Source of the DNA: Deltaproteobacteria bacterium RIFCSPLOWO2_02_FULL_50_16
GTDB taxonomy: Bacteria > UBA10199 > 2-02-FULL-50-16
Direction: 5' to 3'
DNA: 36,592 nt
Assembly: GCA_001798715.1 (NCBI GenBank)
Contig: MGSF01000002.1
Location: forward strand, 1-36,592
This document shows positions 6,762 through 36,592 of this stretch, in pieces. Both the position numbers and the translations under genes were made by a program. How positions within the stretch are numbered: the first letter of the stretch is position 1; each line of letters starts with the position of its first letter. The notes beneath the pieces are model-generated. The model was not told the origin of the DNA. It ran no database searches and saw nothing but the letters and a program-made list of their open reading frames with translations.

Positions 6762-7344
6762 AATCGCTGTTATTCTTGCCGGGGGAAAGAGCCAACGTTT
6801 TGGGGGAGACAAGGTTTTTGTCCCTTTTCGTGGAAAACCGATTATCAACGTTCTCATAGAAATTTTGTCCTCGGCCCATTTCGAGGTTGTCCTTTCGGGG
6901 TCCAAAGAGGGACTGTCGTCGTTGTCCCTCCCGGTGATTGAAGACCAAGATCCTTTTTTGGGACCTTTGGTTGCCCTTCAGGGGATTCTTTCCCACCTTG
7001 ACGACTCCAAAATACTTTTGACGGCGTGTGACATGCCTTTTCTGAAAAAAGAGATTATAACGCTCTTGTGGGATCGGGGACGGGATCAGGATGTCGCGAT
7101 CTTGACGGATCGAGACAGGCCCTGCCCCCTCCCCGGTGTTTATTCAAGGAAAATACTGCCGACCCTGCGACAATTGATAAAATCCGGACGGCGAGATTTA
7201 AAGTCCCTCTTAGACTCTAAGGCCACGGTGTCCCTCCTTCCCGAAGGGGATTGGAGAACGCTAGACTCCGAGGGGCAGTCCCTTTGGAATATCAATACCG
7301 TTGAAGATCTTCACAGGATAGAAAATCGCCTTCAGCGTCTTTGA
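6754..7344 (+). CDS. mobA: Molybdenum cofactor guanylyltransferase MobA
   Basis: VILAGGKSQRFGGDKVFVPFRGKPI nucleotidyltransferase motif, TACDMPFL, WNINTVEDL. ATG at 6754 overlaps the moaE end. Confidence 0.88.
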   Translation: MDKIAVILAGGKSQRFGGDKVFVPFRGKPIINVLIEILSSAHFEVVLSGSKEGLSSLSLPVIEDQDPFLGPLVALQGILSHLDDSKILLTACDMPFLKKEIITLLWDRGRDQDVAILTDRDRPCPLPGVYSRKILPTLRQLIKSGRRDLKSLLDSKATVSLLPEGDWRTLDSEGQSLWNINTVEDLHRIENRLQRL

Positions 7345-8021
7345 GGCCCCACGGGGGGATTGGGTCGTGGGGCGGGGGGACGTCCCCTTTTTAGAGGGGG
7401 TTTGGGTTTGTCAAAACCATAGTGGGTGACGGGCAGATTGCCATTTGAGTCCGTGACCTCGATCATGTAGCCCGTCTGATCTTCCCATCGTCTTAAGGCC
7501 CTTTCAATCAGGGGTTGGTTCATCGACCAGAGCATTTGATGTTCGCCCTCAAGGGTCTGGGAACTAAATAAGGTATAACCGATCGAAAAGGTCTGAAAAC
7601 CCGTCTCATCGGGCCCCCCCCAAATGATATAGCTCGTGGGTTCTTGAATGCGTATATGAACGGGATTGTCGGGATCATGGGCGGTGCGTAAGAAACCGAT
7701 GACGCCCAGATTGAGGCGAAACGTCCAGAGGGGTTCCTTGACCTTTTTCAAGATCAACATCAATTCATCTAGAAAGGTTTGTTGCTCCAGATTCTTTTTC
7801 TCAAAACGTTTGGAGGCGTTATAGGTGATGATTTCCAGATTGTCGGGGACCACGACCCCAAAAAAGGCCCTCAGGAAATTAAAGACCTGTTCAAAAAACC
7901 AGACATTATTTTCCTGGGAGGTCATGTGGGAGAAGTCCATGTGGGAATGAAATCCCCAGGAACCCACAATGGCCCCCTTGTCCGTGCATTCCGAAAAATA
8001 GTCGTCAAGACCCGTGAGCAT
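7332..8021 (-). CDS. Hypothetical protein with Pro/Arg-rich C-terminal tail
   Basis: 229-aa ORF, no recognised family; tail PKPPLKRGRPPAPRPNPPVGPQRR; 3' end overlaps mobA end. Confidence 0.55.
   Translation of the reverse strand: MLTGLDDYFSECTDKGAIVGSWGFHSHMDFSHMTSQENNVWFFEQVFNFLRAFFGVVVPDNLEIITYNASKRFEKKNLEQQTFLDELMLILKKVKEPLWTFRLNLGVIGFLRTAHDPDNPVHIRIQEPTSYIIWGGPDETGFQTFSIGYTLFSSQTLEGEHQMLWSMNQPLIERALRRWEDQTGYMIEVTDSNGNLPVTHYGFDKPKPPLKRGRPPAPRPNPPVGPQRR
7346..7373. terminator. Possible hairpin/terminator between convergent genes (inside the 3' end of the - strand ORF)
   Basis: GCCCCACG (7346-7353) and CGTGGGGC (7366-7373), perfect 8-bp stem just after the mobA stop; no clear T tract. Confidence 0.4.
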
Positions 8022-8109
8022 ATATTAAGGGACATATTAGACGATTTTGGGCCTCTTGTAAAACTTGTAAAATAAGTATAAAAGGAAGGGACTCATCAGG
8101 AGGTCCTCC

Positions 8110-8559
8110 ATGCGCGCCTATAATCTCAAAAAGATTGCGGCCCTGGCCAACAAGGATGTGTGCCATCAAAATTTTGGACTTCAGAGATTGCGAGGCAATA
8201 AGAAAAGATGTGTCGGTCAGATCGTTTTAAAACCCTGGCATGTCAATTTGGCCCACACCATTCACGGAGGGATCTTGTACAGTGCGATCGATACCGTGAT
8301 GGGGCTGGCGGCCGTGGCCCATCTTGCAGGTTCAGAGACGATTTTGGCCATGGATGTCAAAATTAATTATATCCGCCCCGCCTTTCTAAAAATGAAACGC
8401 CTTCAATGCTCGGCCCAATTGGTCAGCCGAACGGGCCGCTTTGCTGTTGTTGAAGGGGTTGTTTCTTCTCCAAAAAAGGAAATCTTGGCCAAGGCCATGG
8501 GGACCTATGCTATCTTACGTAGATCCCCTACGGAAAAGGCCTCGTGGCAGTGTTACTGA
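8110..8559 (+). CDS. PaaI-type hotdog-fold thioesterase
   Basis: AHTIHGGILYSAIDTVMGLAAVAHL...MDVKINYIRPA hotdog signature; AGGAGG upstream. Confidence 0.8.
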   Translation: MRAYNLKKIAALANKDVCHQNFGLQRLRGNKKRCVGQIVLKPWHVNLAHTIHGGILYSAIDTVMGLAAVAHLAGSETILAMDVKINYIRPAFLKMKRLQCSAQLVSRTGRFAVVEGVVSSPKKEILAKAMGTYAILRRSPTEKASWQCY

Positions 8560-9312
8560 GTGTTTCACTTTTTTCTGGGCCAATTCAGACATGGATTGAA
8601 TGACTTCTTGGTGAATTCGATGGATCTGCTGTCCTTTTGTCTCCCCTTTTTTTCTTTTAATGGGGATGGGGGCCCCAATGATGTGGGTCAGCCTCTTCGG
8701 GAGGGGAAAGAGGCCCAGACCGAAAAAGAAGGGGAGGCTAAATCGCGTGAGCTCCAGGAATTTAATCCGGGCCTTCAAAAGAAAATAGATATTATAGTAG
8801 ACGGAGTTGATCCCCTGGCAATAGGTGGGGATGATTGGGGCCCTTGTCTTGACGGCAATACGCACAAAGCCCTGCCGCCGTTCCCAGGGGATTCGCCGGA
8901 GCCCTTTTTTGGCAATGAGGGCCTCATAAATCCCCCCTGGAGACAGCATCACAATATTTTTTTCCCTTAGTAATTTTAGGGCATTTTCCTCATTGGCATC
9001 GACAGCGCCCCCCTTCAAAAAAAGCTGATTGATAAAAGGGATATCAAATAAAAAACTGGCCCCTAGGCCACGGGAATAAATTTTGAGCTTTGAGACGAGA
9101 TACATGTGAAAGAGATAGGCGTGATAGGGGATGATGCCGTGGTTCATGACGATGATGGCCGGCCCTCTTTTTGGGATATGTTCCAGGCCCCAAACCCGAA
9201 AGCGAAAATACCTTCTTAAGGGGCCCAGAAAGCGACGGACCCTGTCGACAAATTCGGGATCAAAGCGCTCAGTGGGATGGCGTTTTTTCTTTTTGGCTTG
9301 CCGTAATTTCAT
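8515..9312 (-). CDS. Lysophospholipid acyltransferase (PlsC-like) family protein
   Basis: GPAIIVMNHGIIPYHAYLFHMYL...FINQLFLKGGAVDANEENALKLLREKNIVMLSPGGIYEA; PlsC-like block order, variant HX4D motif. Confidence 0.7.
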   Translation of the reverse strand: MKLRQAKKKKRHPTERFDPEFVDRVRRFLGPLRRYFRFRVWGLEHIPKRGPAIIVMNHGIIPYHAYLFHMYLVSKLKIYSRGLGASFLFDIPFINQLFLKGGAVDANEENALKLLREKNIVMLSPGGIYEALIAKKGLRRIPWERRQGFVRIAVKTRAPIIPTYCQGINSVYYNIYFLLKARIKFLELTRFSLPFFFGLGLFPLPKRLTHIIGAPIPIKRKKGETKGQQIHRIHQEVIQSMSELAQKKVKHSVTLPRGLFRRGST

Positions 9313-9373
9313 GGACCATGGATACTATCGAGATCATAGGAAGAGAGTCAAACCAAGATTAAGGAGGCTCACT

Positions 9374-9829
9374 ATGGCAGGCTCCAAACACCCTCAAGAA
9401 TCCCGAGTGGAAATGACCCAACTCGTCCTTCCTGCGCATACCAATGCCATCGGGACGATCTTTGGGGGTCAAATTATGGCCTGGATCGATACCGCCGCCG
9501 CCATATGCTCCTTTCGGCACTCTCGAAAGATGTGTGTGACGGCCTCGATGGATGCCTTAAACTTCATCTCCCCTGTTAAGCAGGGTGATATCGTGATCTT
9601 ACAGGCCAATGTCAATTATACCGGTCGATCGTCCATGGAGATCGGCGTCAAGGTGACCTCGGAGAATTCCATCACGGGAGAAAAGAAGAAGACAGCCAGG
9701 GCCTATCTGACCTTTGTCGCCTTGGACGACAAAGGCAAACCTGTTGAAATTGCTCAGATTTTACCACAGAATGAACAAGAAAAGACCTGGTATCAAGAGG
9801 GGAAGGAGCGGCGGCTTAAACGGCCATAA
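9374..9829 (+). CDS. Acyl-CoA thioesterase, YciA/BACH hotdog family
   Basis: MTQLVLPAHTNAIGTIFGGQIMAWIDTAAAICSFRHSRKMCVTASMDALNFISPVKQGD; AAGGAGG before the ATG at 9374. Confidence 0.88.
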   Translation: MAGSKHPQESRVEMTQLVLPAHTNAIGTIFGGQIMAWIDTAAAICSFRHSRKMCVTASMDALNFISPVKQGDIVILQANVNYTGRSSMEIGVKVTSENSITGEKKKTARAYLTFVALDDKGKPVEIAQILPQNEQEKTWYQEGKERRLKRP

Positions 9830-9834
9830 AAAAA

Positions 9835-9868
9835 GGCCCTTACCCCGGACTTCTCCGGGATAAGGGCC
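9835..9868. terminator. Rho-independent, probably bidirectional terminator
   Basis: GGCCCTTAcCCCGGActtcTCCGGGaTAAGGGCC hairpin, A tract before and T-rich stretch after. Confidence 0.85.
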
Positions 9869-9884
9869 CCATTTTTATTCTCAT

Positions 9885-10478
9885 TTACTCCTGGCAGGTG
9901 GCTACTTCTTCGGATGTCGCAAGGGCGTTGCCGTTTTCATCCACGCACTCGGTGGAGAAATCAGGGCCGTCGCCAACATTTAAGTGACAGAGATAAAGGG
10001 TGCCATCGATATAGAAGGATCCATCCACGATCTCTTCTTCGTTCTCGATGCAGTAGATCCCATGACTGCCGGCCTGAAAGGTGATGCCGCAGACCTGGAC
10101 ATCTTGAGGCATTGCCCAAGTAATACAAGAGGTTGCCTCTTGGCTGGAGTCGCAGGTAAAGTCGGCCTCGACCACCTTGCTGCTCCCGTAGGTGGCGGCG
10201 GGGACATTGGGATCGAAGGTGATCCCCTCGGGGCCACCCTCGTCGGCACAGATATCATAGGCCGCTTGTCCCTCCCCCTCAACCTCGGCGGCGAGGATCA
10301 GGGCCTGATTGCTACTGGAATTCGAAAAGATCGAACCCACAGCCGCCCCGATCACGGCACTTTCGGGGGCCTCTGATGTGGTTGTATCACTGACATCCCC
10401 TGAGGAATTTGAGCCGCAACCGACATAGGTAAGGGCTGCCAACAGGGCGACACAGTAGGTGAGTATCTGCTTCTTCAT
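9885..10478 (-). CDS. Predicted lipoprotein, Cys-containing, unknown function
   Basis: Signal peptide with lipobox MKKQILTYCVALLAALTYVGC; acidic, Cys-containing mature part; AGGAGGT before the start. Confidence 0.7.
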   Translation of the reverse strand: MKKQILTYCVALLAALTYVGCGSNSSGDVSDTTTSEAPESAVIGAAVGSIFSNSSSNQALILAAEVEGEGQAAYDICADEGGPEGITFDPNVPAATYGSSKVVEADFTCDSSQEATSCITWAMPQDVQVCGITFQAGSHGIYCIENEEEIVDGSFYIDGTLYLCHLNVGDGPDFSTECVDENGNALATSEEVATCQE

Positions 10479-25899: not shown

Positions 25900-27342
25900 T
25901 TATGGTAAATGAGTCGACCCCATCAGATAACGATCGACAGATTTTGCCGTTTCCCGCCCATCGGCAATACACCAAACTACGAGGGAGGCCCCCCGGGAGA
26001 CATCCCCCGCACTAAAAACACCGGGCATGGAAGTCATGCGGTTCTCGTTGATGTTGACATTTCCTCGTGGATCATAGCCCACTTTGAGATCCTCTAAAAG
26101 ACCTTGGTGAACGGGAGAGACAAAGCCCATGGCAATCAGCACAAGATCGGCCTCGATTTCAAACTCAGATCCGCTCAAGGATTTCATTGTAGGGGGTTTT
26201 CCGGGTTCTTGAGATTTTTCCCATTTTACCTCAACACCGTGAAGCTTTTTCACGGCGCCGTTCTCCCCGGTCAGTCGAGTTGTGCTGATACACCAGCGCC
26301 GCTCACACCCTTCCTTGTGGGAGGTGGAGGTTCGGAGTTCACCCGACCAAAGGGGCCAGGGGGTTGATGGGGGGCGCTCGTCAGGGGGTTTTGGAAGGAT
26401 TTCGAACTGATAAATCTTTTTGGCCCCTTGGCGATGGGCTGTCCCCACGCAATCAGAGCCGGTGTCCCCTCCGCCGATGACAACAACTGTTTTGTTCTTG
26501 GCCAGGATCTCCTCATCAAATACAACGTTTTTTTCTGCGAAACGCCGGTTCTGTTGGGTGAGGTATTCCATGGCAAAGTGGACACCTTTTAGTGTGCGGC
26601 CAGGGATGTCGAGATCTCGCGGATGCCCCGCTCCAATAGCCAAAATTGTGGCATCAAAATCCTTGAGGAGATAATTTCCGATGATATCAACCCCGACATG
26701 AATATTGGGTTTGAAGATCACACCCTCTTCGCGCATTTGTTCAATGCGGAAATCAAGGAGACGCTTCTCTAATTTAAAATCAGGAATCCCATAACGGAGC
26801 AGTCCTCCAAAACGATCCGATTTTTCGTAGATGACTACATGATGTCCCGCCCGTCTCAATTGTTGGGCGGCAGCGAGGCCGGCCGGTCCAGAGCCGATGA
26901 CAGCCACGCGTTTTCCTGTTCGATGTGTGGGAGGTTGTGGTTTGACCCATCCTTCTTTTAAGGCGTGATCGATGATTTCTTTTTCGATTTGTTTGATGGC
27001 GATGGGTTGATCAATGAGCCCGAGGACACAGGCATTTTCGCAGGGAGCGGGGCAGACGCGGCCGGTAAATTCCGGAAAGTTGTTTGTTGAGTGGAGATTT
27101 TGAATCGCCTCTGCCCAGCGACTGTGGTAGACAAACTCATTCCACTCGGGAATGATATTGCCTAAAGGGCATCCTGACTGACAGAAAGGAACCCCGCAAT
27201 CCATACACCGGGCCCCTTGTTCCATCAATTTCTCTTCGGGCAATGGTTTGGTAAATTCCTGATAGTGTTGAACACGTTGACCTACCGGCTCTTCTTCGGG
27301 AATCGCTCTCTTATATTCTAAAAAGCCCGTTAATTTTCCCAT
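25900..27342 (-). CDS. gltD: Glutamate synthase small subunit GltD
   Basis: RCMDCGVPFCQSGCPLGN, GRVCPAPCENACVLG, VAVIGSGPAGLAAAQQLRRAGHHV, VVVIGGGDTGSDCVGTAHRQGA, GVFSAGDVSRGASLVVWCIADGRE. Confidence 0.96.
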   Translation of the reverse strand: MGKLTGFLEYKRAIPEEEPVGQRVQHYQEFTKPLPEEKLMEQGARCMDCGVPFCQSGCPLGNIIPEWNEFVYHSRWAEAIQNLHSTNNFPEFTGRVCPAPCENACVLGLIDQPIAIKQIEKEIIDHALKEGWVKPQPPTHRTGKRVAVIGSGPAGLAAAQQLRRAGHHVVIYEKSDRFGGLLRYGIPDFKLEKRLLDFRIEQMREEGVIFKPNIHVGVDIIGNYLLKDFDATILAIGAGHPRDLDIPGRTLKGVHFAMEYLTQQNRRFAEKNVVFDEEILAKNKTVVVIGGGDTGSDCVGTAHRQGAKKIYQFEILPKPPDERPPSTPWPLWSGELRTSTSHKEGCERRWCISTTRLTGENGAVKKLHGVEVKWEKSQEPGKPPTMKSLSGSEFEIEADLVLIAMGFVSPVHQGLLEDLKVGYDPRGNVNINENRMTSMPGVFSAGDVSRGASLVVWCIADGRETAKSVDRYLMGSTHLP

Positions 27343-27360: not shown

Positions 27361-30300
27361 TTAGGTAAGGTTGTCGAGCTGTTTTTTAACGTCTCCCTTG
27401 ACGTTGCTGGCCCATTGCATCTGTTCCAGGGCCCTTTTGTAGTCCCGAGGCATAACCTTGACAAACCGGGGCAGAAAATCATTCCAACGATCCAGAAATT
27501 TTTCAGCCAAATGAGAATCCGTGAAACGATAATGATTGCGAATCATGGTAAATAGGGTCTCAATATCATCTTTTGATTCGATGATTTCGAGCTCGATCAG
27601 TTCGGTATTACAATGCCAATTCAGGTCATCTTCAGGATCATAGACATAAGCAATTCCGCCACTCATTCCTGCAGCAAAGTTTCTCCCCGTTTCGCCCAGG
27701 ACCACCACGATGCCTCCCGTCATATATTCGCAGCCATGATCGCCCACACCTTCAATGACGGCCTTGGCCCCAGAGTTACGCACGGCAAAGCGCTCGCCCG
27801 CAATCCCACGAATATAAACTTCGCCATCGGTGGCCCCATAGAGGGCGACGTTTCCAATGATGATATTTTTTTCGGCCTTAAATGAAGAGGCCTTGGGGGG
27901 ATAAACGACGATGCGTCCCCCCGAAAGACCCTTTCCAATATAATCATTGGCATCACCTTCAAGGGTAAAGTCAATTCCCTGAGTGAGAAAGGCGCCAAAA
28001 CTGGGACCGGCAGAACCCTTGAATTTGATCTGGATGGTATGATCCGGGAGTCCCTCGGATCCGTATTTTTGTGTAATTTTGCCACTCAACATGGCCCCAA
28101 CTGTCAAATTTGTATTTTCAATTATCTTTTCAAAGGCCACAGGGGTTTTATTGTGAATAGAATTTTGACATCTCTCAACAAGATCCTCGTCCATGATATT
28201 ATTCATTTCATGATCTTGCTTCTGGGTACAATAAAGAGTGTCACTTTCTCTGGGTTGGACTTGGTGCAAAAGAGTGGAGAGATTAATTTTTTTAATCTTC
28301 CAATGATCAATGTTTTTTCTTACTTGCAGAAGATTTGTGTGGCCAATCAGATCATTAAACTTTTGCACCCCCAGTTGAGCCATGATTTCACGGGCCTCTT
28401 CTGCGACAAAGAAGAAATAGCGGATGATGTATTCAGGGGTCCCTTTAAAATTTTTTCTTAAAACCGGATCTTGAGTCGCAATCCCAACAGGGCAGGTATT
28501 GAGGTGGCATTTTCGCATCATGATGCATCCGCTGGCAATCAGGGGTGCCGTGGCAAAACCAAATTCTTCAGCACCCAGGAGGGCGCCGACAATCACATCG
28601 CGTCCTGTTTTTATCTGCCCATCGGCCTGAAGAACCGTACGACCCCGAAATCCATTGGCGACCAAGGTTTGCTGGGTTTCGGCAATCCCCATCTCCCACG
28701 GGATGCCGGTATGTTTGATGGAGGTTAAGGGTGAGGCGCCCGTGCCTCCGTCATGACCAGAGATCAGGATGTGATCGGCATGGGCCTTGCAAACGCCCGC
28801 AGCAATAGTTCCCACCCCCACCGTCGCGACCAGTTTGACGGAGATCCGAGCCTCTGGATTGATATTTTTGAGATCAAAAATGAGTTGTTTGAGGTCCTCG
28901 ATCGAATAAATATCATGATGGGGAGGAGGGGAGATCAGCCCCACCCCCGGTGTTGATAAGCGGACACGGGCGATGGCCTTATCCACTTTATGTCCAGGGA
29001 GCTGTCCCCCTTCACCGGGTTTGGCCCCTTGGGCAATTTTGATCTGAAGTTCGGTGGCATTGATCAAGTATTCGGCATTGACGCCAAAACGGGCCGAGGC
29101 CACTTGTTTAATGGCACTACGGGCGGAGTCTCCATTGGGGAGAGGTTGATATCTTTGAGGGTCTTCACCGCCTTCGCCGCTATTGCTCTTGCCGCCGATA
29201 CGATTCATGGCAATAGCAAGATTGGTGTGGGCTTCAAGACTTATGGATCCGTAGGACATCGCTCCCGTGACAAACCTTTTGACGATTGCACTTGCGGGTT
29301 CCACCTCATCAATGGGGATTGATTTCTTGGGATCTATTTTGAATTCCAAAAGGCCTCTTAATGTGGCCGTATTTTTATTTTGCTCATTCACAAGGGCCGC
29401 AAATTTTTTATAAGTCGAAGGATCGTCTTTGTTGACGGCGTGCTGTAATGCAGCAATCGTTTGAGGGTTCCACTGATGAAACTCCCCTTGAACGCGAAAA
29501 TGATAGTCTCCTCCAGGACGGAGGACAGAGGGACCCATCTGCGTTTTGGGGTAGGCCTGTTCGTGAAAGAGGAGGGCCTCTTTGGCGATCTCTTCAATGC
29601 CAAGCCCCCCAATGCGGGAGGTTGTCCCGGTAAAATATTTTGAAATAACGGCATTATTCAAGCCCACGGCCTCAAAAATCTGGGATCCTTTATAGCTTTG
29701 AAGGGTGGAAATCCCCATTTTTGAAAGGATTTTGTATAAGGCCTTTTTGATGGCCTTTTTAAATTGATGGATGGCTTCGGTGACATCAGCGATCTCCTTT
29801 AATTTGTGTTGTTCGAAGAGATCTTCGATGGATTCAAAAAGGAGATAAGGGTTGATGGCACAGGCCCCGTAACCCACAAGAAGGGCAAAATGGTGCATTT
29901 CACGGGGGCTCCCACTTTCTAGGATGAGGGCCACCTTGGTGCGTGTCCCCGCACGAATAAGGTGATGATGAAGTCCTGAAATGGCCAAGAGGGCAGGGAT
30001 GGGGACATTTTTTTCATCCACGCCACGGTCACTGAGGATGAGGAGTGCATGTCCCTTTTTTATGGCTTGATCGGCCTGCTTAAAAATGTCTTCCATGACG
30101 GGGGCTAGTCCATTTTCTCCTTCCTTGGCCGGGAAGAGAATAGGGATTGTTGTGGCCTTGAATTCGGGAAGTGGATTATGACGCAGTTGTTCGAGCTCGT
30201 TATTTGTCAGGATGGGGTGATCGATTTGGATACGATGAGCTTGTTCGGGGGTTTCTTCCAGGAGATTTCCCTCAGAACCTAGATAACTGATGAGAGACAT

Positions 30301-31941
30301 GACCATCTCTTCGCGGATGGCATCGACGGGGGGGTTGGTGACTTGAGCGAAGAGCTGTTTGAAGTAATTGTATAAAAGTCTCGGTTGATTCGAAAGAACG
30401 GCCAAAGGGGTGTCATTTCCCATCGAACCCAGAGGTTCCTGGGCATTATTGATGGTGGGAAGAATGAGAAATTCGAAATCCTCTTGTGTAAAACCAAAGG
30501 CCTTGTGCCGGTTGAGTAAGGTGGAAAAATCAGAGGATTGTCCCTTGACAGGGACCTTGGGCATTTTCTTCAAGGGGATAATGTTTTTATCGGCCCATTC
30601 TTTATAGGGTTTTTGTGTTGAGAGTTTTTTGTTATTCTCAAGATCGCTGATAATGCGCCCTTCCTCTATGTTAATAAGAAACATCTTTCCGGGTTGGAGG
30701 CGCCCTTTGTATTTGATGGATTCGGGAGGAACGGGGAGAGAACCTACTTCGGAAGACAGGATCACCAAATCATCATCCGTGACATAATACCGGGAAGGCC
30801 TCAGTCCATTGCGATCAAGAATGGCCCCGACAATATGACCATTTGTAAAGGCGACGGAGGCAGGTCCATCCCAGGGCTCCATGAGGGTGGAATGATATTG
30901 GTAAAAACCCCTCCTGACAGGGTCCATACGATCCTGAGTCGTCCAGGCCTCGGGGATCAACATTTTAATGACATGGGGCAGGCTGCGCCCGCTTAAGGTC
31001 AATAATTCGACCACATTATCAAGGGTGGCCGAATCACTATTGCCAGGGACGACAATGGGAGAGATTTTTTTTATGTCATCAAAGAGGGGAGAGGTACACA
31101 TCGCCGAGCGTGTATGCATCCAATTGACATTTCCCCTTAGGGTATTGATTTCCCCATTGTGGCTGATGTAGCGGAAGGGATGGGCCAAGTCCCAGCGAGG
31201 AAGGACATTGGTGCTAAAACGTGCATGGACCAGTGCCAAGGCCGATTGAAAATCGGGGTCTTGGAGATCGAGATAGTATTTGGGGACTTGTTCGGACAAG
31301 AGCATTCCTTTATAAACCAGGGTTTGCGATGAAAGACTTGAGAAGTAAAAATACGAGGCCTCTTCCATTTCTGAATCACGAATGATATTTTCACATCGTT
31401 TGCGGATCACATAGAGTTTGCGTTCAATATCCGCTTCATTTTTTTCCTGGGTCTGGATAAAGACTTGGCGGATGACGGGCTCGACAATTTTGGCTGAGGG
31501 GCCGATCATGCTATTGTCGGTGGGGACATCCCGCCAACCCAGTAATGTGGCCTTTTCTTCAGCAACCACCTTCTCAACAGTTTTGAGACACAGAGCCCTC
31601 TCTTTCTTATCGCGGGGGAGGAAAAGCATTCCGATGCCATAATGTCCTTGCGGAGGCAGGGGGATCTTTAGTTTTTTGCATGCCTTGGCAAAGAACTGGT
31701 GCGGGGGTTGGATCAGGATACCGGCGCCATCTCCTGTGTTGGGTTCGCTCCCCTTGGCCCCTCGATGTTCGAGATTTTTGAGCATGGTGAGGGCATTGAA
31801 GATGATCTCGTGTGAGGGCCTTCCCTTGAGATGAACGATGAAACCCACACCGCACGCATCATGTTCAAAACGAGGGTCGTAGAGGCCATGTCTTGCGGCC
31901 TGTTCAAAGGCGTGTTGAGGTGGATATCCTTGGTTTTTCAC
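27361..31941 (-). CDS. gltB: Glutamate synthase large subunit GltB
   Basis: DACGVGFIV N-terminal nucleophile context, HNGEINTLRGN, GEGGEDPQRY, GEGGQLPGHKV, CHLNTCPVGIATQDP 3Fe-4S motif. ORF is open to 31986; a GTG at 31941 is the proposed start. Confidence 0.96.
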   Translation of the reverse strand: MKNQGYPPQHAFEQAARHGLYDPRFEHDACGVGFIVHLKGRPSHEIIFNALTMLKNLEHRGAKGSEPNTGDGAGILIQPPHQFFAKACKKLKIPLPPQGHYGIGMLFLPRDKKERALCLKTVEKVVAEEKATLLGWRDVPTDNSMIGPSAKIVEPVIRQVFIQTQEKNEADIERKLYVIRKRCENIIRDSEMEEASYFYFSSLSSQTLVYKGMLLSEQVPKYYLDLQDPDFQSALALVHARFSTNVLPRWDLAHPFRYISHNGEINTLRGNVNWMHTRSAMCTSPLFDDIKKISPIVVPGNSDSATLDNVVELLTLSGRSLPHVIKMLIPEAWTTQDRMDPVRRGFYQYHSTLMEPWDGPASVAFTNGHIVGAILDRNGLRPSRYYVTDDDLVILSSEVGSLPVPPESIKYKGRLQPGKMFLINIEEGRIISDLENNKKLSTQKPYKEWADKNIIPLKKMPKVPVKGQSSDFSTLLNRHKAFGFTQEDFEFLILPTINNAQEPLGSMGNDTPLAVLSNQPRLLYNYFKQLFAQVTNPPVDAIREEMVMSLISYLGSEGNLLEETPEQAHRIQIDHPILTNNELEQLRHNPLPEFKATTIPILFPAKEGENGLAPVMEDIFKQADQAIKKGHALLILSDRGVDEKNVPIPALLAISGLHHHLIRAGTRTKVALILESGSPREMHHFALLVGYGACAINPYLLFESIEDLFEQHKLKEIADVTEAIHQFKKAIKKALYKILSKMGISTLQSYKGSQIFEAVGLNNAVISKYFTGTTSRIGGLGIEEIAKEALLFHEQAYPKTQMGPSVLRPGGDYHFRVQGEFHQWNPQTIAALQHAVNKDDPSTYKKFAALVNEQNKNTATLRGLLEFKIDPKKSIPIDEVEPASAIVKRFVTGAMSYGSISLEAHTNLAIAMNRIGGKSNSGEGGEDPQRYQPLPNGDSARSAIKQVASARFGVNAEYLINATELQIKIAQGAKPGEGGQLPGHKVDKAIARVRLSTPGVGLISPPPHHDIYSIEDLKQLIFDLKNINPEARISVKLVATVGVGTIAAGVCKAHADHILISGHDGGTGASPLTSIKHTGIPWEMGIAETQQTLVANGFRGRTVLQADGQIKTGRDVIVGALLGAEEFGFATAPLIASGCIMMRKCHLNTCPVGIATQDPVLRKNFKGTPEYIIRYFFFVAEEAREIMAQLGVQKFNDLIGHTNLLQVRKNIDHWKIKKINLSTLLHQVQPRESDTLYCTQKQDHEMNNIMDEDLVERCQNSIHNKTPVAFEKIIENTNLTVGAMLSGKITQKYGSEGLPDHTIQIKFKGSAGPSFGAFLTQGIDFTLEGDANDYIGKGLSGGRIVVYPPKASSFKAEKNIIIGNVALYGATDGEVYIRGIAGERFAVRNSGAKAVIEGVGDHGCEYMTGGIVVVLGETGRNFAAGMSGGIAYVYDPEDDLNWHCNTELIELEIIESKDDIETLFTMIRNHYRFTDSHLAEKFLDRWNDFLPRFVKVMPRDYKRALEQMQWASNVKGDVKKQLDNLT

Positions 31942-31982
31942 GGCTTTTCCAAAACATACGCATTTACTAAGGAGTTCATATT

Positions 31983-31999
31983 CCACTATACATTGAAAA
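31983..31999 (-). promoter_or_regulatory. Repeated intergenic motif TTTTCAATGTATAGTGG, copy 2 (gltB leader)
   Basis: + strand CCACTATACATTGAAAA; exact 17-nt match to copy 1. Confidence 0.55.
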
Positions 32000-32226: not shown

Positions 32227-33618
<1,392 letters not shown>

Positions 33619-33799
33619 TTAAAGATCTTCCCCTTTGCAAGGGACAAAAATCCATACTGAAAAATAAGGGGATTGTAAACATGTTTTTATGGAAGGGCTG
33701 AAAGGGAAGGATGAGGCAGGTCGGGGGATGGGGAAAAAAGGGGAGAGGCAAGGGGTTGACAAGAGGACCGATTCGTTGTGAAAGTAGGGTGGGGGTTTT

Positions 33800-36388
33800 G
33801 TGAGGACATTGAATTCAGAGAGTACGGGTATTCAGGGGTTGGATGACATTCTTCAGACCCTTAAAAAGGGTGATAATGTCGTTTGGCAGGTGGATAATGT
33901 TAAGAGTTACCAGCACTTTGTCACCCCCTATGTGGAACAGGCCATCAAGGATAAAAAAAGGATTGTTTATATCCGATTTGCAAAACACCCCCCTTTGATC
34001 CCGGAGGGGAAAAAAGGGGTTTGTGTGTGTCCGCTGGAGGCCTCTTCCGGATTTGAGACCTTTTCCACCCAAATTCACGACATCGTCACTCGAGAAGGGG
34101 AAGGCGTCTTTTATGTCTTTGACTGTCTCTCCGATCTCTTATCGGCCTGGGCCACGGACCTGATGATCGGCAATTTTTTCATGGTCACTTGTCCTTATCT
34201 CTTCAAGTTGGATACCATCGCCTACTTTGCGATTCTCCGCGACAATCACTCCTTTAAGACCGTCGCGCGCATTCGTGAAACGACGCAGCTTTTGCTGGAT
34301 GTCTATCATTTTGAAAAAAGTTATTGTCTCCAACCACTCAAGGTATGGCGGCGCTATTCCCCCACCATGTTTTTGCCCCATGTTCAGAATAATGATCAAT
34401 TTGTCCCTCTCACCAACAGCGTTGATGCAACCCGGCTATTTTCCTACATGTCGGTCAAGGGGGCGGAGAGTGCCGAAAGATACCTGGATTACTGGGACCA
34501 TCTCTTTTTGGAGGCCCGGGAACTTGTTGAAAAATCCCCCTCTGAAGAGGAAAAGGGCAAGATGTTTTCAAAACTCTGTCAAATTATGATCGGCCGAGAG
34601 TCTCGAATATTGGCACTTGTTGAGAAAAATTTTTGTTTAGAAGATTTGTTGGCAATCAAGGCCAGGATGATTGGGACAGGATTTATTGGGGGGAAGGCCG
34701 TTGGCATGTTGTTGGCCCGCAATATCCTTTCTCATGACAAGTCATTTGATTGGAAAGGCTATCTGGAGCCCCATGATTCCTATTTTATCGGGTCCGATGT
34801 TTTTTATACCTATGTTGTGGAAAACGGATGGTGGGATTTGTGGCTCGAACAAAAGGCGGAGGAGGGTTATTCGGAAAAGGCGGCGGATTTGAAAGAAAAG
34901 ATGCTTCGTGGGGATTTTCCGGATGTGATTCGAGATCAATTTCATCAGATGGTCGAGTATTATGGACAGTATCCCATCATTGTTCGCTCGTCTTCCTTGT
35001 TGGAGGATGGTTTTGGAAATGCCTTTGCCGGAAAATATGAAAGTTTTTTCTGTGTCAACAAGGGATCTCCCGAGGAACGCTATCGAAAGTTTGAAGAAAC
35101 GGCAAAAAAGGTCTTTGCAAGCATGATGGAGGAAGAGGCCTTGAGCTATCGCCTGCAGCGGGGTTTAAGCCGGCAAGATGAGCAGATGGCCCTGTTGGTC
35201 CAGAAGGTGTCGGGTTCCTATTACAAGCATTACTTTTTTCCGTTCCTTGCGGGTGTGGGTGTGTCTTACAACAGTTTTGTTTGGCACAAGGATATGGATC
35301 CGAAGGCCGGGATGCTCCGGTTGGTGCTCGGCCTGGGGACAAGGGCCGTCGATCGGGTGGCGGGGGATTATGTGACCATCGTGGCCTTGGATCAACCGAC
35401 GCTTCGACCCTATGCGGGGCTGGAAGATATGAAGAGATTTACCCAACACGAGGTGGATCTCTTGGACAAGGATGTCAATGCGATTCAAAAAGGGATCCGG
35501 CTTGCCAAACTTTTGGAGGAGGAAGTGGATCTTGATTTAGATCTTGTGGGCCAAAGGGATCTGGAGGCGGAGAAACGGACAAAAGAGCTGGGAAAAGAGG
35601 GACAATATTGGGTTTTGACTTTTGATAAGTTTTTGTCCAAGACGGATTTTCCGAAAAACATGCAAAAGATTCTTAAACTACTGGAGGATCAATATCACTA
35701 TCCCGTGGATGTCGAGTTTACTGTGAATTTTACGAGTGAAGGGACTCCCCAGGTCAATCTGCTTCAGTGCCGACCTCTTCAGGCCAAGGGGGAAGGGGGG
35801 CCTGTTGTGATTCCAGATAAAATTCCACGTGAAAAAATCATTTTTGAGTCGGAAGGCCATTTTATGGGAGGCAATGTGTCACAGTCCCTCCAAAGGATCA
35901 TTTACATAGATCTCAAGGGATATGGCGCCCTGCCTTTGTCTCAAAAATACGAGGTGGCCCGTCTCATCGGGAGACTCAACAAAAAGATTGGGGAGAAAAA
36001 AGGCATTGCCACGCTCCTCGCGGGTCCTGGAAGATGGGGGACGCGGGATCCTTCTCTAGGAGTCGCCGTTAAGTTTGCGGAGATTAACAATATATCAGTT
36101 TTGGTGGAGTTGGCAGATCTCGAGGCGGGATTTATGCCCGAACTTTCCTTTGGTTCCCACTTCTTTCTTGATTTGGTGGAGGCCCAGATCTTTTATTTGG
36201 CCTTTTTTCAGGGGGGCCCCAAGACCTACTTTAATAAGGAATGGTTTCAAGGACTCCCCAACATGTTGGGAGAGATGCTCCCGGAGGATGGGACCTATCA
36301 GGGCGTGGTCAAGGTGTGTGATCTGCAAAATCAGGAATTAAAATTGTTGTCCGATGTGGCCTTGCAGAGGGTTGTGTGTCTGCAATGA
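33800..36388 (+). CDS. PEP synthase/PPDK N-terminal (ATP-grasp) domain protein with N-terminal degenerate KaiC-like domain
   Basis: STGIQGLDDILQTLKKGDNVVWQVD (KaiC-like start without a P-loop); IGGKAVGMLLARNIL, YPIIVRSSSLLEDGFGNAFAGKYESFFC, RLVLGLGTRAVDRVAGDY (PPDK_N). No swivelling phosphohistidine or TIM-barrel PEP domain seen. GTG start. Confidence 0.85.
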   Translation: MRTLNSESTGIQGLDDILQTLKKGDNVVWQVDNVKSYQHFVTPYVEQAIKDKKRIVYIRFAKHPPLIPEGKKGVCVCPLEASSGFETFSTQIHDIVTREGEGVFYVFDCLSDLLSAWATDLMIGNFFMVTCPYLFKLDTIAYFAILRDNHSFKTVARIRETTQLLLDVYHFEKSYCLQPLKVWRRYSPTMFLPHVQNNDQFVPLTNSVDATRLFSYMSVKGAESAERYLDYWDHLFLEARELVEKSPSEEEKGKMFSKLCQIMIGRESRILALVEKNFCLEDLLAIKARMIGTGFIGGKAVGMLLARNILSHDKSFDWKGYLEPHDSYFIGSDVFYTYVVENGWWDLWLEQKAEEGYSEKAADLKEKMLRGDFPDVIRDQFHQMVEYYGQYPIIVRSSSLLEDGFGNAFAGKYESFFCVNKGSPEERYRKFEETAKKVFASMMEEEALSYRLQRGLSRQDEQMALLVQKVSGSYYKHYFFPFLAGVGVSYNSFVWHKDMDPKAGMLRLVLGLGTRAVDRVAGDYVTIVALDQPTLRPYAGLEDMKRFTQHEVDLLDKDVNAIQKGIRLAKLLEEEVDLDLDLVGQRDLEAEKRTKELGKEGQYWVLTFDKFLSKTDFPKNMQKILKLLEDQYHYPVDVEFTVNFTSEGTPQVNLLQCRPLQAKGEGGPVVIPDKIPREKIIFESEGHFMGGNVSQSLQRIIYIDLKGYGALPLSQKYEVARLIGRLNKKIGEKKGIATLLAGPGRWGTRDPSLGVAVKFAEINNISVLVELADLEAGFMPELSFGSHFFLDLVEAQIFYLAFFQGGPKTYFNKEWFQGLPNMLGEMLPEDGTYQGVVKVCDLQNQELKLLSDVALQRVVCLQ

Positions 36389-36560
36389 TGGTTTGAATCT
36401 TCTTGGTTGGTAGCGGCCTTGACCAGAGGTGTCAAATATCCGCCTTTTTCCTTATCATTCTGATAAAGGATGATAAACTCCATAATACATTGAAAACATT
36501 CACGTTTTTGTGAATATTAGAGATGTCCTTGATGAGGGCCATCGATCAAAGACCCCCCCT

Positions 36561-36571
36561 CTTTTGAGGGG
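36561..36571. other. Possible short hairpin near window end
   Basis: CCCCTC-TTTT-GAGGGG at about 36556-36571; 6-bp stem only. Confidence 0.3.
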
Positions 36572-36592
36572 AATTTATAACCTCTTGAAATT

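Follow-up and report, generated by a model that had tools for sequence, protein, structure and literature searches.

What is the function of a protein that carries the ATP-grasp domain of PEP synthase and PPDK, and lacks the other domains of these enzymes? The question is raised by one gene in a 36,592-nucleotide stretch of contig MGSF01000002.1 from Deltaproteobacteria bacterium RIFCSPLOWO2_02_FULL_50_16, referred to here as the window. The product is currently named 'PEP/pyruvate-binding domain-containing protein' in the database. The gene forms a single open frame from a GTG start codon at 33800 to a stop codon at 36386–36388. The contig ends 204 bp past it (window 36388–36592), and its neighbourhood is visible upstream only. 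The features of the locus are as follows.

25900–27342, reverse strand: glutamate synthase small subunit, gltD-type; named from sequence, falls in one cluster with the GltD-type neighbours seen at other loci
27361–31986, reverse strand: glutamate synthase large subunit, gltB-type; named from sequence, falls in one cluster with the GltB-type neighbours seen at other loci
32227–33591, reverse strand: gdhA, glutamate dehydrogenase (GDH), 454 aa, divergent neighbour; ELFV_dehydrog E = 3.3e-92
33592–33799, no strand: divergent intergenic region of 208 bp shared by gdhA and the family gene; no Rfam match
33800–36388, forward strand: family gene, CDS of 862 aa in a single open frame, comprising pseudo-KaiC domain, PPDK_N ATP-grasp domain and C-terminal domain (CTD)
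33800–34660, forward strand: N-terminal pseudo-KaiC domain (about residues 1–205) and helical linker (about 206–287); AlphaFold pLDDT 94, Foldseek KaiC and FlaH, linker taken from the secondary structure of the model
33869–33934, forward strand: site where a P-loop would lie, GDNVVWQVDNVKSYQHFVTPYV, residues 24–45, with GDNVVWQVD kept in the class; Walker A in 0/89 members
34121–34123, forward strand: Asp108 at the Walker B position (FYVFDCLS), invariant by conservation among members
34685–35779, forward strand: PPDK_N ATP-grasp domain, residues 296–660; PF01326 E = 1.3e-48; K299, R396, E402, D403, E639 and Q656 invariant in 184 proteins
35783–36385, forward strand: CTD, residues 662–862; no Pfam family and a predicted fold with no PDB match (Pfam, AlphaFold, Foldseek)
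36158–36160, forward strand: His787 in the motif S-x-G-[ST]-H-F-F, the only invariant histidine of the ATP-grasp and CTD core (183/183 proteins with a residue there)

With Pfam searched to E = 1, PPDK_N (PF01326, residues 296–670) was the sole family found in the protein. The PEP-utilizers domain (PF00391) and the PEP barrel gave no match even at this threshold; the model of the CTD matched no swivelling-domain fold, and the protein ends after this 200-aa domain. PEP synthase and PPDK, which combine PF01326 with PF00391 and a PEP-binding barrel, resemble the family in having an ATP-grasp domain with K, R, E and Q residues. They possess a swivelling phosphohistidine domain and a PEP/pyruvate barrel, however, whereas the family protein has neither and carries an unrelated CTD instead. 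By domain content it is therefore not a PEP synthase or PPDK. The preliminary description had recognized a KaiC-like part followed by PPDK_N, and the absence of the mobile His domain and barrel, all of which was borne out; its suggestion that the ATP-grasp protein acts on another acceptor or is regulatory also stands. It missed the further conserved domain past PPDK_N (residues ~662–862), although this part carries the only invariant histidine of the core. The family is thus a conserved pseudo-KaiC domain joined to an intact PEP-synthase-type ATP-grasp domain and an undescribed CTD, and it is widespread and unstudied.

The N-terminal domain opens with STGIQGLDDIL, and WQVDNVKSYQHF occupies the place of the P-loop. 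From sequence comparison alone, its relationship to KaiC is weak. The Pfam KaiC model matched only 1 of 75 members (E = 0.0045), a profile search of the N-terminus against PDB sequences returned only chance-level matches (E about 1), and hhalign placed the domain in register with RadA over TGxxxLD..GD..VVW, yet weakly (P = 0.004). Structure prediction was more informative. The AlphaFold model, built on a 75-sequence alignment, retrieved KaiC (7s65, E = 1.2e-11) as the top Foldseek match in the PDB and FlaH (4yds, E = 7.5e-11) as the second, followed by many KaiC entries. A RecA-like fold of the KaiC type is accordingly predicted by the model, as had been proposed from the opening motif.

The domain shares with the KaiC, RadA and FlaH ATPases this predicted fold (Foldseek E = 1e-11), a Walker-B-type aspartate and the start motif TGxxxLD..GD. 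The aspartate, D108, was placed by motif and order rather than by superposition. In contrast, a Walker A motif was absent from all 89 full-length relatives, which come from many phyla and represent the part of the family closest to the window protein. Lacking Walker A, the protein is not an active KaiC ATPase. GDNVVWQVD, Asp108 and many other N-terminal positions are conserved in the same 89 members, so that loss of the P-loop is an old family trait and not local decay. In a FastTree tree of the ATP-grasp domain and CTD, all 96 pseudo-KaiC members fell on one side of a branch with support of 99. The pseudo-KaiC class is monophyletic, and the P-loop-less form is its ancient, conserved state. 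The P-loop is indeed gone, as first described, but the word 'degenerate' is misleading for a form conserved in this way. Inactivated archaeal KaiC domains ('iKaiC') are known (PMC5847659); from these and the active ATPases the class is set apart by the lack of Walker A in all 89 members and by its fusion to an ATP-grasp domain, seen in bacteria and in some archaea as well.

The P-loop-less KaiC domain of the family was also seen in a 424-aa regulator of another genome (L055:6899–8170), joined there to HTH_3 and Cupin_2 domains. It matches the window protein with E about 1e-27 and the Pfam KaiC model over its whole length with E = 1.3e-7. Its presence in a one-component transcription factor is what would be expected of a sensor module, and this fusion indicates that a dead KaiC domain can serve regulation without ATPase activity.

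The nearest solved structures to the ATP-grasp part are PEP synthases. K299, R396, E402, D403, G513, E639 and Q656 were found to be invariant in 184 family proteins. Of these, K299, R396, E639 and Q656 correspond to the Lys, Arg, Glu and Gln of the PPDK-type ATP-grasp domain, whose roles in ATP binding and catalysis are established for PPDK, and their invariance argues for an ATP site in working order. It bears on the possibility that the protein is an inert pseudo-enzyme, which would bind ATP or ADP as an energy signal and regulate GDH or transcription by binding alone. Nucleotide binding could by itself be a signal, and the HTH-cupin fusion provides a dead KaiC domain in just such a setting. 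The invariant residues, however, include those needed for catalysis in PPDK-type ATP-grasp domains and not just for binding, and we consider this explanation rather unlikely.

No Pfam family was detected in the CTD of any of 86 members, all matches being at chance level. AlphaFold predicted its fold with confidence (pLDDT 93.2, pTM 0.90), and Foldseek found no relative of the model in the PDB (best E = 0.47, TM under 0.3). A search of the viral library gave no match. The CTD is therefore not a recognizable phosphohistidine domain, and a cryptic swivelling His domain was ruled out by the Foldseek and Pfam results. A profile search against PDB sequences gave the VAMP7 longin domain at E = 0.08, which is chance level. 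R745, G754 and E770 do not vary among 184 sequences, nor do S783, G785 and H787 among the 183 with a residue at the site; the window protein has the ATP-grasp domain followed by the CTD with R745, E770, S783, G785 and H787, which defines the family. In the protein the CTD takes the position of the swivelling His domain, and it may supply a phospho-acceptor in cis. H787 is proposed as the candidate phospho-acceptor or catalytic residue, although a role in binding or in structure would explain its invariance equally well.

A phosphohistidine domain might instead be supplied in trans. In this explanation the protein would be half of a PEP-synthase-type enzyme, completed by PtsI or PPDK. It agrees with the ATP-grasp residues, which the protein shares with the PEP synthase family, and the genome encodes PF00391 proteins of PtsI length (617 aa) and PPDK length (903 aa). 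The search for a separate His-domain partner, proposed earlier, was run with PF00391 across the rest of the genome (92% complete) and found only these two. Both are sized as complete enzymes, so there is no orphan His-domain partner among them. In addition, the CTD sits at the His-domain position and in every case belongs to a large frame that includes the rest of the core. No PEP-linked gene family recurred among neighbours of the pseudo-KaiC loci, whereas nitrogen genes did. Such a half-enzyme is very improbable.

For the core, a scan of GTDB genomes yielded at least 582 relatives, the best 80 of which belong to Bacillota, Desulfobacterota-type bacteria, Planctomycetota, Omnitrophota, Elusimicrobia, Gammaproteobacteria, Actinomycetes, Spirochaetes and a few archaeal bins. 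Among 385 genomes sampled around that of the window, the CTD was present in 78, always in large frames, and the pseudo-KaiC domain in 17. The core occurs alone (~585 aa), with ~200 aa in front, with receiver-like or DUF5752 N-termini (~1000 aa), or with the pseudo-KaiC domain. No relatives were found on viral contigs; plasmid matches comprised three Bacteroidales records, which were distant core matches.

In the window, gdhA starts divergently from the family gene, as the preliminary description had stated; it is 208 bp away, and beyond it lie the gltB-type and then the gltD-type gene. No riboswitch or other Rfam element was found in the intergenic region, and a promoter scan was near chance (7 found, 4.0 ± 2.3 expected) and was set aside. 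The neighbour had been treated as incidental; adjacency to GDH instead proved to be the strongest functional clue. In neighbour clustering of the pseudo-KaiC loci, GDH ranked first, with 27 loci. With general signalling and ABC-transporter families set aside, and with Pfam checks on neighbours, the next recurrent families were GltB, GltD, an ammonium transporter with GlnK-type P-II, glutamine synthetase, NrpR, glutamine amidotransferases and a RelA/SpoT-domain protein.

Loci of up to ~8 kb on each side of the family gene, for the pseudo-KaiC members and nearly all other CTD genes, were then compared with 40 arbitrary contig positions, some short, from genomes carrying the family. GDH was called with an HMM built from neighbours of the family at a threshold of 80 bits. 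It was present in 29/96 pseudo-KaiC loci (Fisher p = 2e-4) and, for the remaining N-terminal classes, in 41/73 (p = 2e-9), or 70/169 for all classes together, against 1/40 control stretches; the loci are mutually related, and these p-values overstate independence. No GDH lay near the gene in 67 of the 96 pseudo-KaiC loci. GDH was within 500 bp in 22/96 pseudo-KaiC loci, 11/25 loci of the core alone, 7/14 with a short N-terminus and 23/53 with a long one; the Marinobacter homologue begins 3–11 bp after gdhA. It was found in 0/7 loci of PPDK_N proteins of PPDK or PEP-synthase size without the CTD, the PPDK-length gene of the window genome included.

Two GDH subfamilies are involved. GdhA-like enzymes mostly accompany pseudo-KaiC and long-N-terminus proteins, and standalone cores are paired solely with the second subfamily. 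On the core tree GDH adjacency changed at least 41 times, and the association is thus not one frozen operon. At the genome level, an ELFV dehydrogenase was encoded in 74/75 genomes with a clear CTD match compared with 226/310 without (p = 4e-8), and the single exception is 79% complete. The genomic link to GDH is well supported, and functional coupling of the family to GDH or ammonium assimilation is highly probable. Gene neighbourhood cannot separate action on GDH from action in the same pathway.

Further neighbours were seen at individual loci. In three (L060, L061 and L063), a gene for an NrpR-like nitrogen repressor is convergent with the family gene and shares ~7–36 bases with its end; Pfam NRD1_2 was confirmed for that of L060. 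A RelA/SpoT-domain protein, confirmed by Pfam in L105, is encoded near the family gene in L099, L105, L121, L126 and L127, in three of them 13–16 bp away, and is a possible link to ppGpp.

The gene order GDH, standalone core (~585 aa), long ATP-grasp and CTD protein (~1060–1100 aa) was observed in L237, L242, L243, L245 and L260, so that two paralogous copies adjoin one GDH. L216 holds four family copies in one cluster beside more than one GDH; the first after the standalone copy looks split (6930–7217 with 7166–10054), by a frameshift or an assembly error. Two long members, L216:7166–10054 and L217:4898–8131, carry NTP_transf_2 of the Pol-beta type after the CTD. GlnD and GlnE, two enzymes of nitrogen control, belong to this superfamily. 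The likeness to these nucleotidyltransferases is limited to role and to this domain at the end of the two long relatives, and the window protein lacks it.

These arrangements bear on whether the core is a metabolic enzyme, one that converts a GDH substrate or product (2-oxoglutarate, glutamate or ammonium) in an ATP-dependent step, with N-termini that merely regulate it. The ATP-grasp domain and CTD both have catalytic-looking invariant residues, the core co-localizes with GDH, GltBD, GlnA and ammonium transport, and standalone ~585-aa cores adjoin GDH. Nevertheless, no such step is known in GDH or ammonium pathways, several copies can share a cluster beside more than one GDH, and fusions to receiver-like and nucleotidyltransferase domains are typical of signalling. 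A metabolic role of this kind seems unlikely. The same signalling-type companions, receiver-like N-termini and the C-terminal NTP_transf_2 of two long members, support a regulator.

Our preferred, still tentative, reading is that the protein uses ATP under the control of a sensor to regulate GDH and ammonium assimilation, or serves as a dedicated modifying enzyme there, probably by phosphotransfer through H787. The pseudo-KaiC domain would sense a ligand or partner without burning ATP. The ATP-grasp domain would bind ATP in the way its counterparts in PEP synthase and PPDK do, and use it, and the (pyro)phosphoryl group would most likely be passed to His787 of the CTD, standing in for the swivelling His domain. 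From there the group would be passed on, to GDH or to a small molecule that reflects nitrogen status, or in response to either, with the output falling on GDH or its pathway. The lack of recognizable likeness between the CTD and phosphohistidine domains counts against phosphotransfer. The wider proposal, which we regard as doubtful, is of an ATP-grasp signalling class in many bacterial phyla, in which a new-fold domain accepts a phosphoryl group on an invariant histidine and controls GDH covalently or allosterically under exchangeable sensors (pseudo-KaiC, receiver).

Receiver–PPDK fusions are a published response-regulator architecture (PMC5847659, PMC4395418), and aspartate-less receivers with PPDK outputs have been described (PMC4395418). 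Family members with receiver-like N-termini have the same ATP-grasp domain and CTD and adjoin GDH, and the published proteins probably share this core. They differ from the window protein, whose N-terminus is pseudo-KaiC, and the available parts of both papers mention neither a CTD nor GDH for them. While REC–PPDK architectures are already known, the pseudo-KaiC/PPDK_N class, the CTD and the GDH link were found described nowhere in the open-access literature searched.

Glutamate dehydrogenase is one of the main routes by which ammonium enters metabolism. To our knowledge, bacterial GDH has no widespread dedicated protein regulator comparable to GlnD, GlnE and P-II for glutamine synthetase. The family, found in 78/385 sampled genomes and recurrently beside GDH, is a concrete candidate. 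If this is true, PPDK-type ATP-grasp domains can work with another, previously undescribed, kind of domain, and a dead KaiC domain would act as a bacterial sensor module. The recurrence of the gene beside GDH points to a so far unknown form of ATP-dependent control over nitrogen assimilation.
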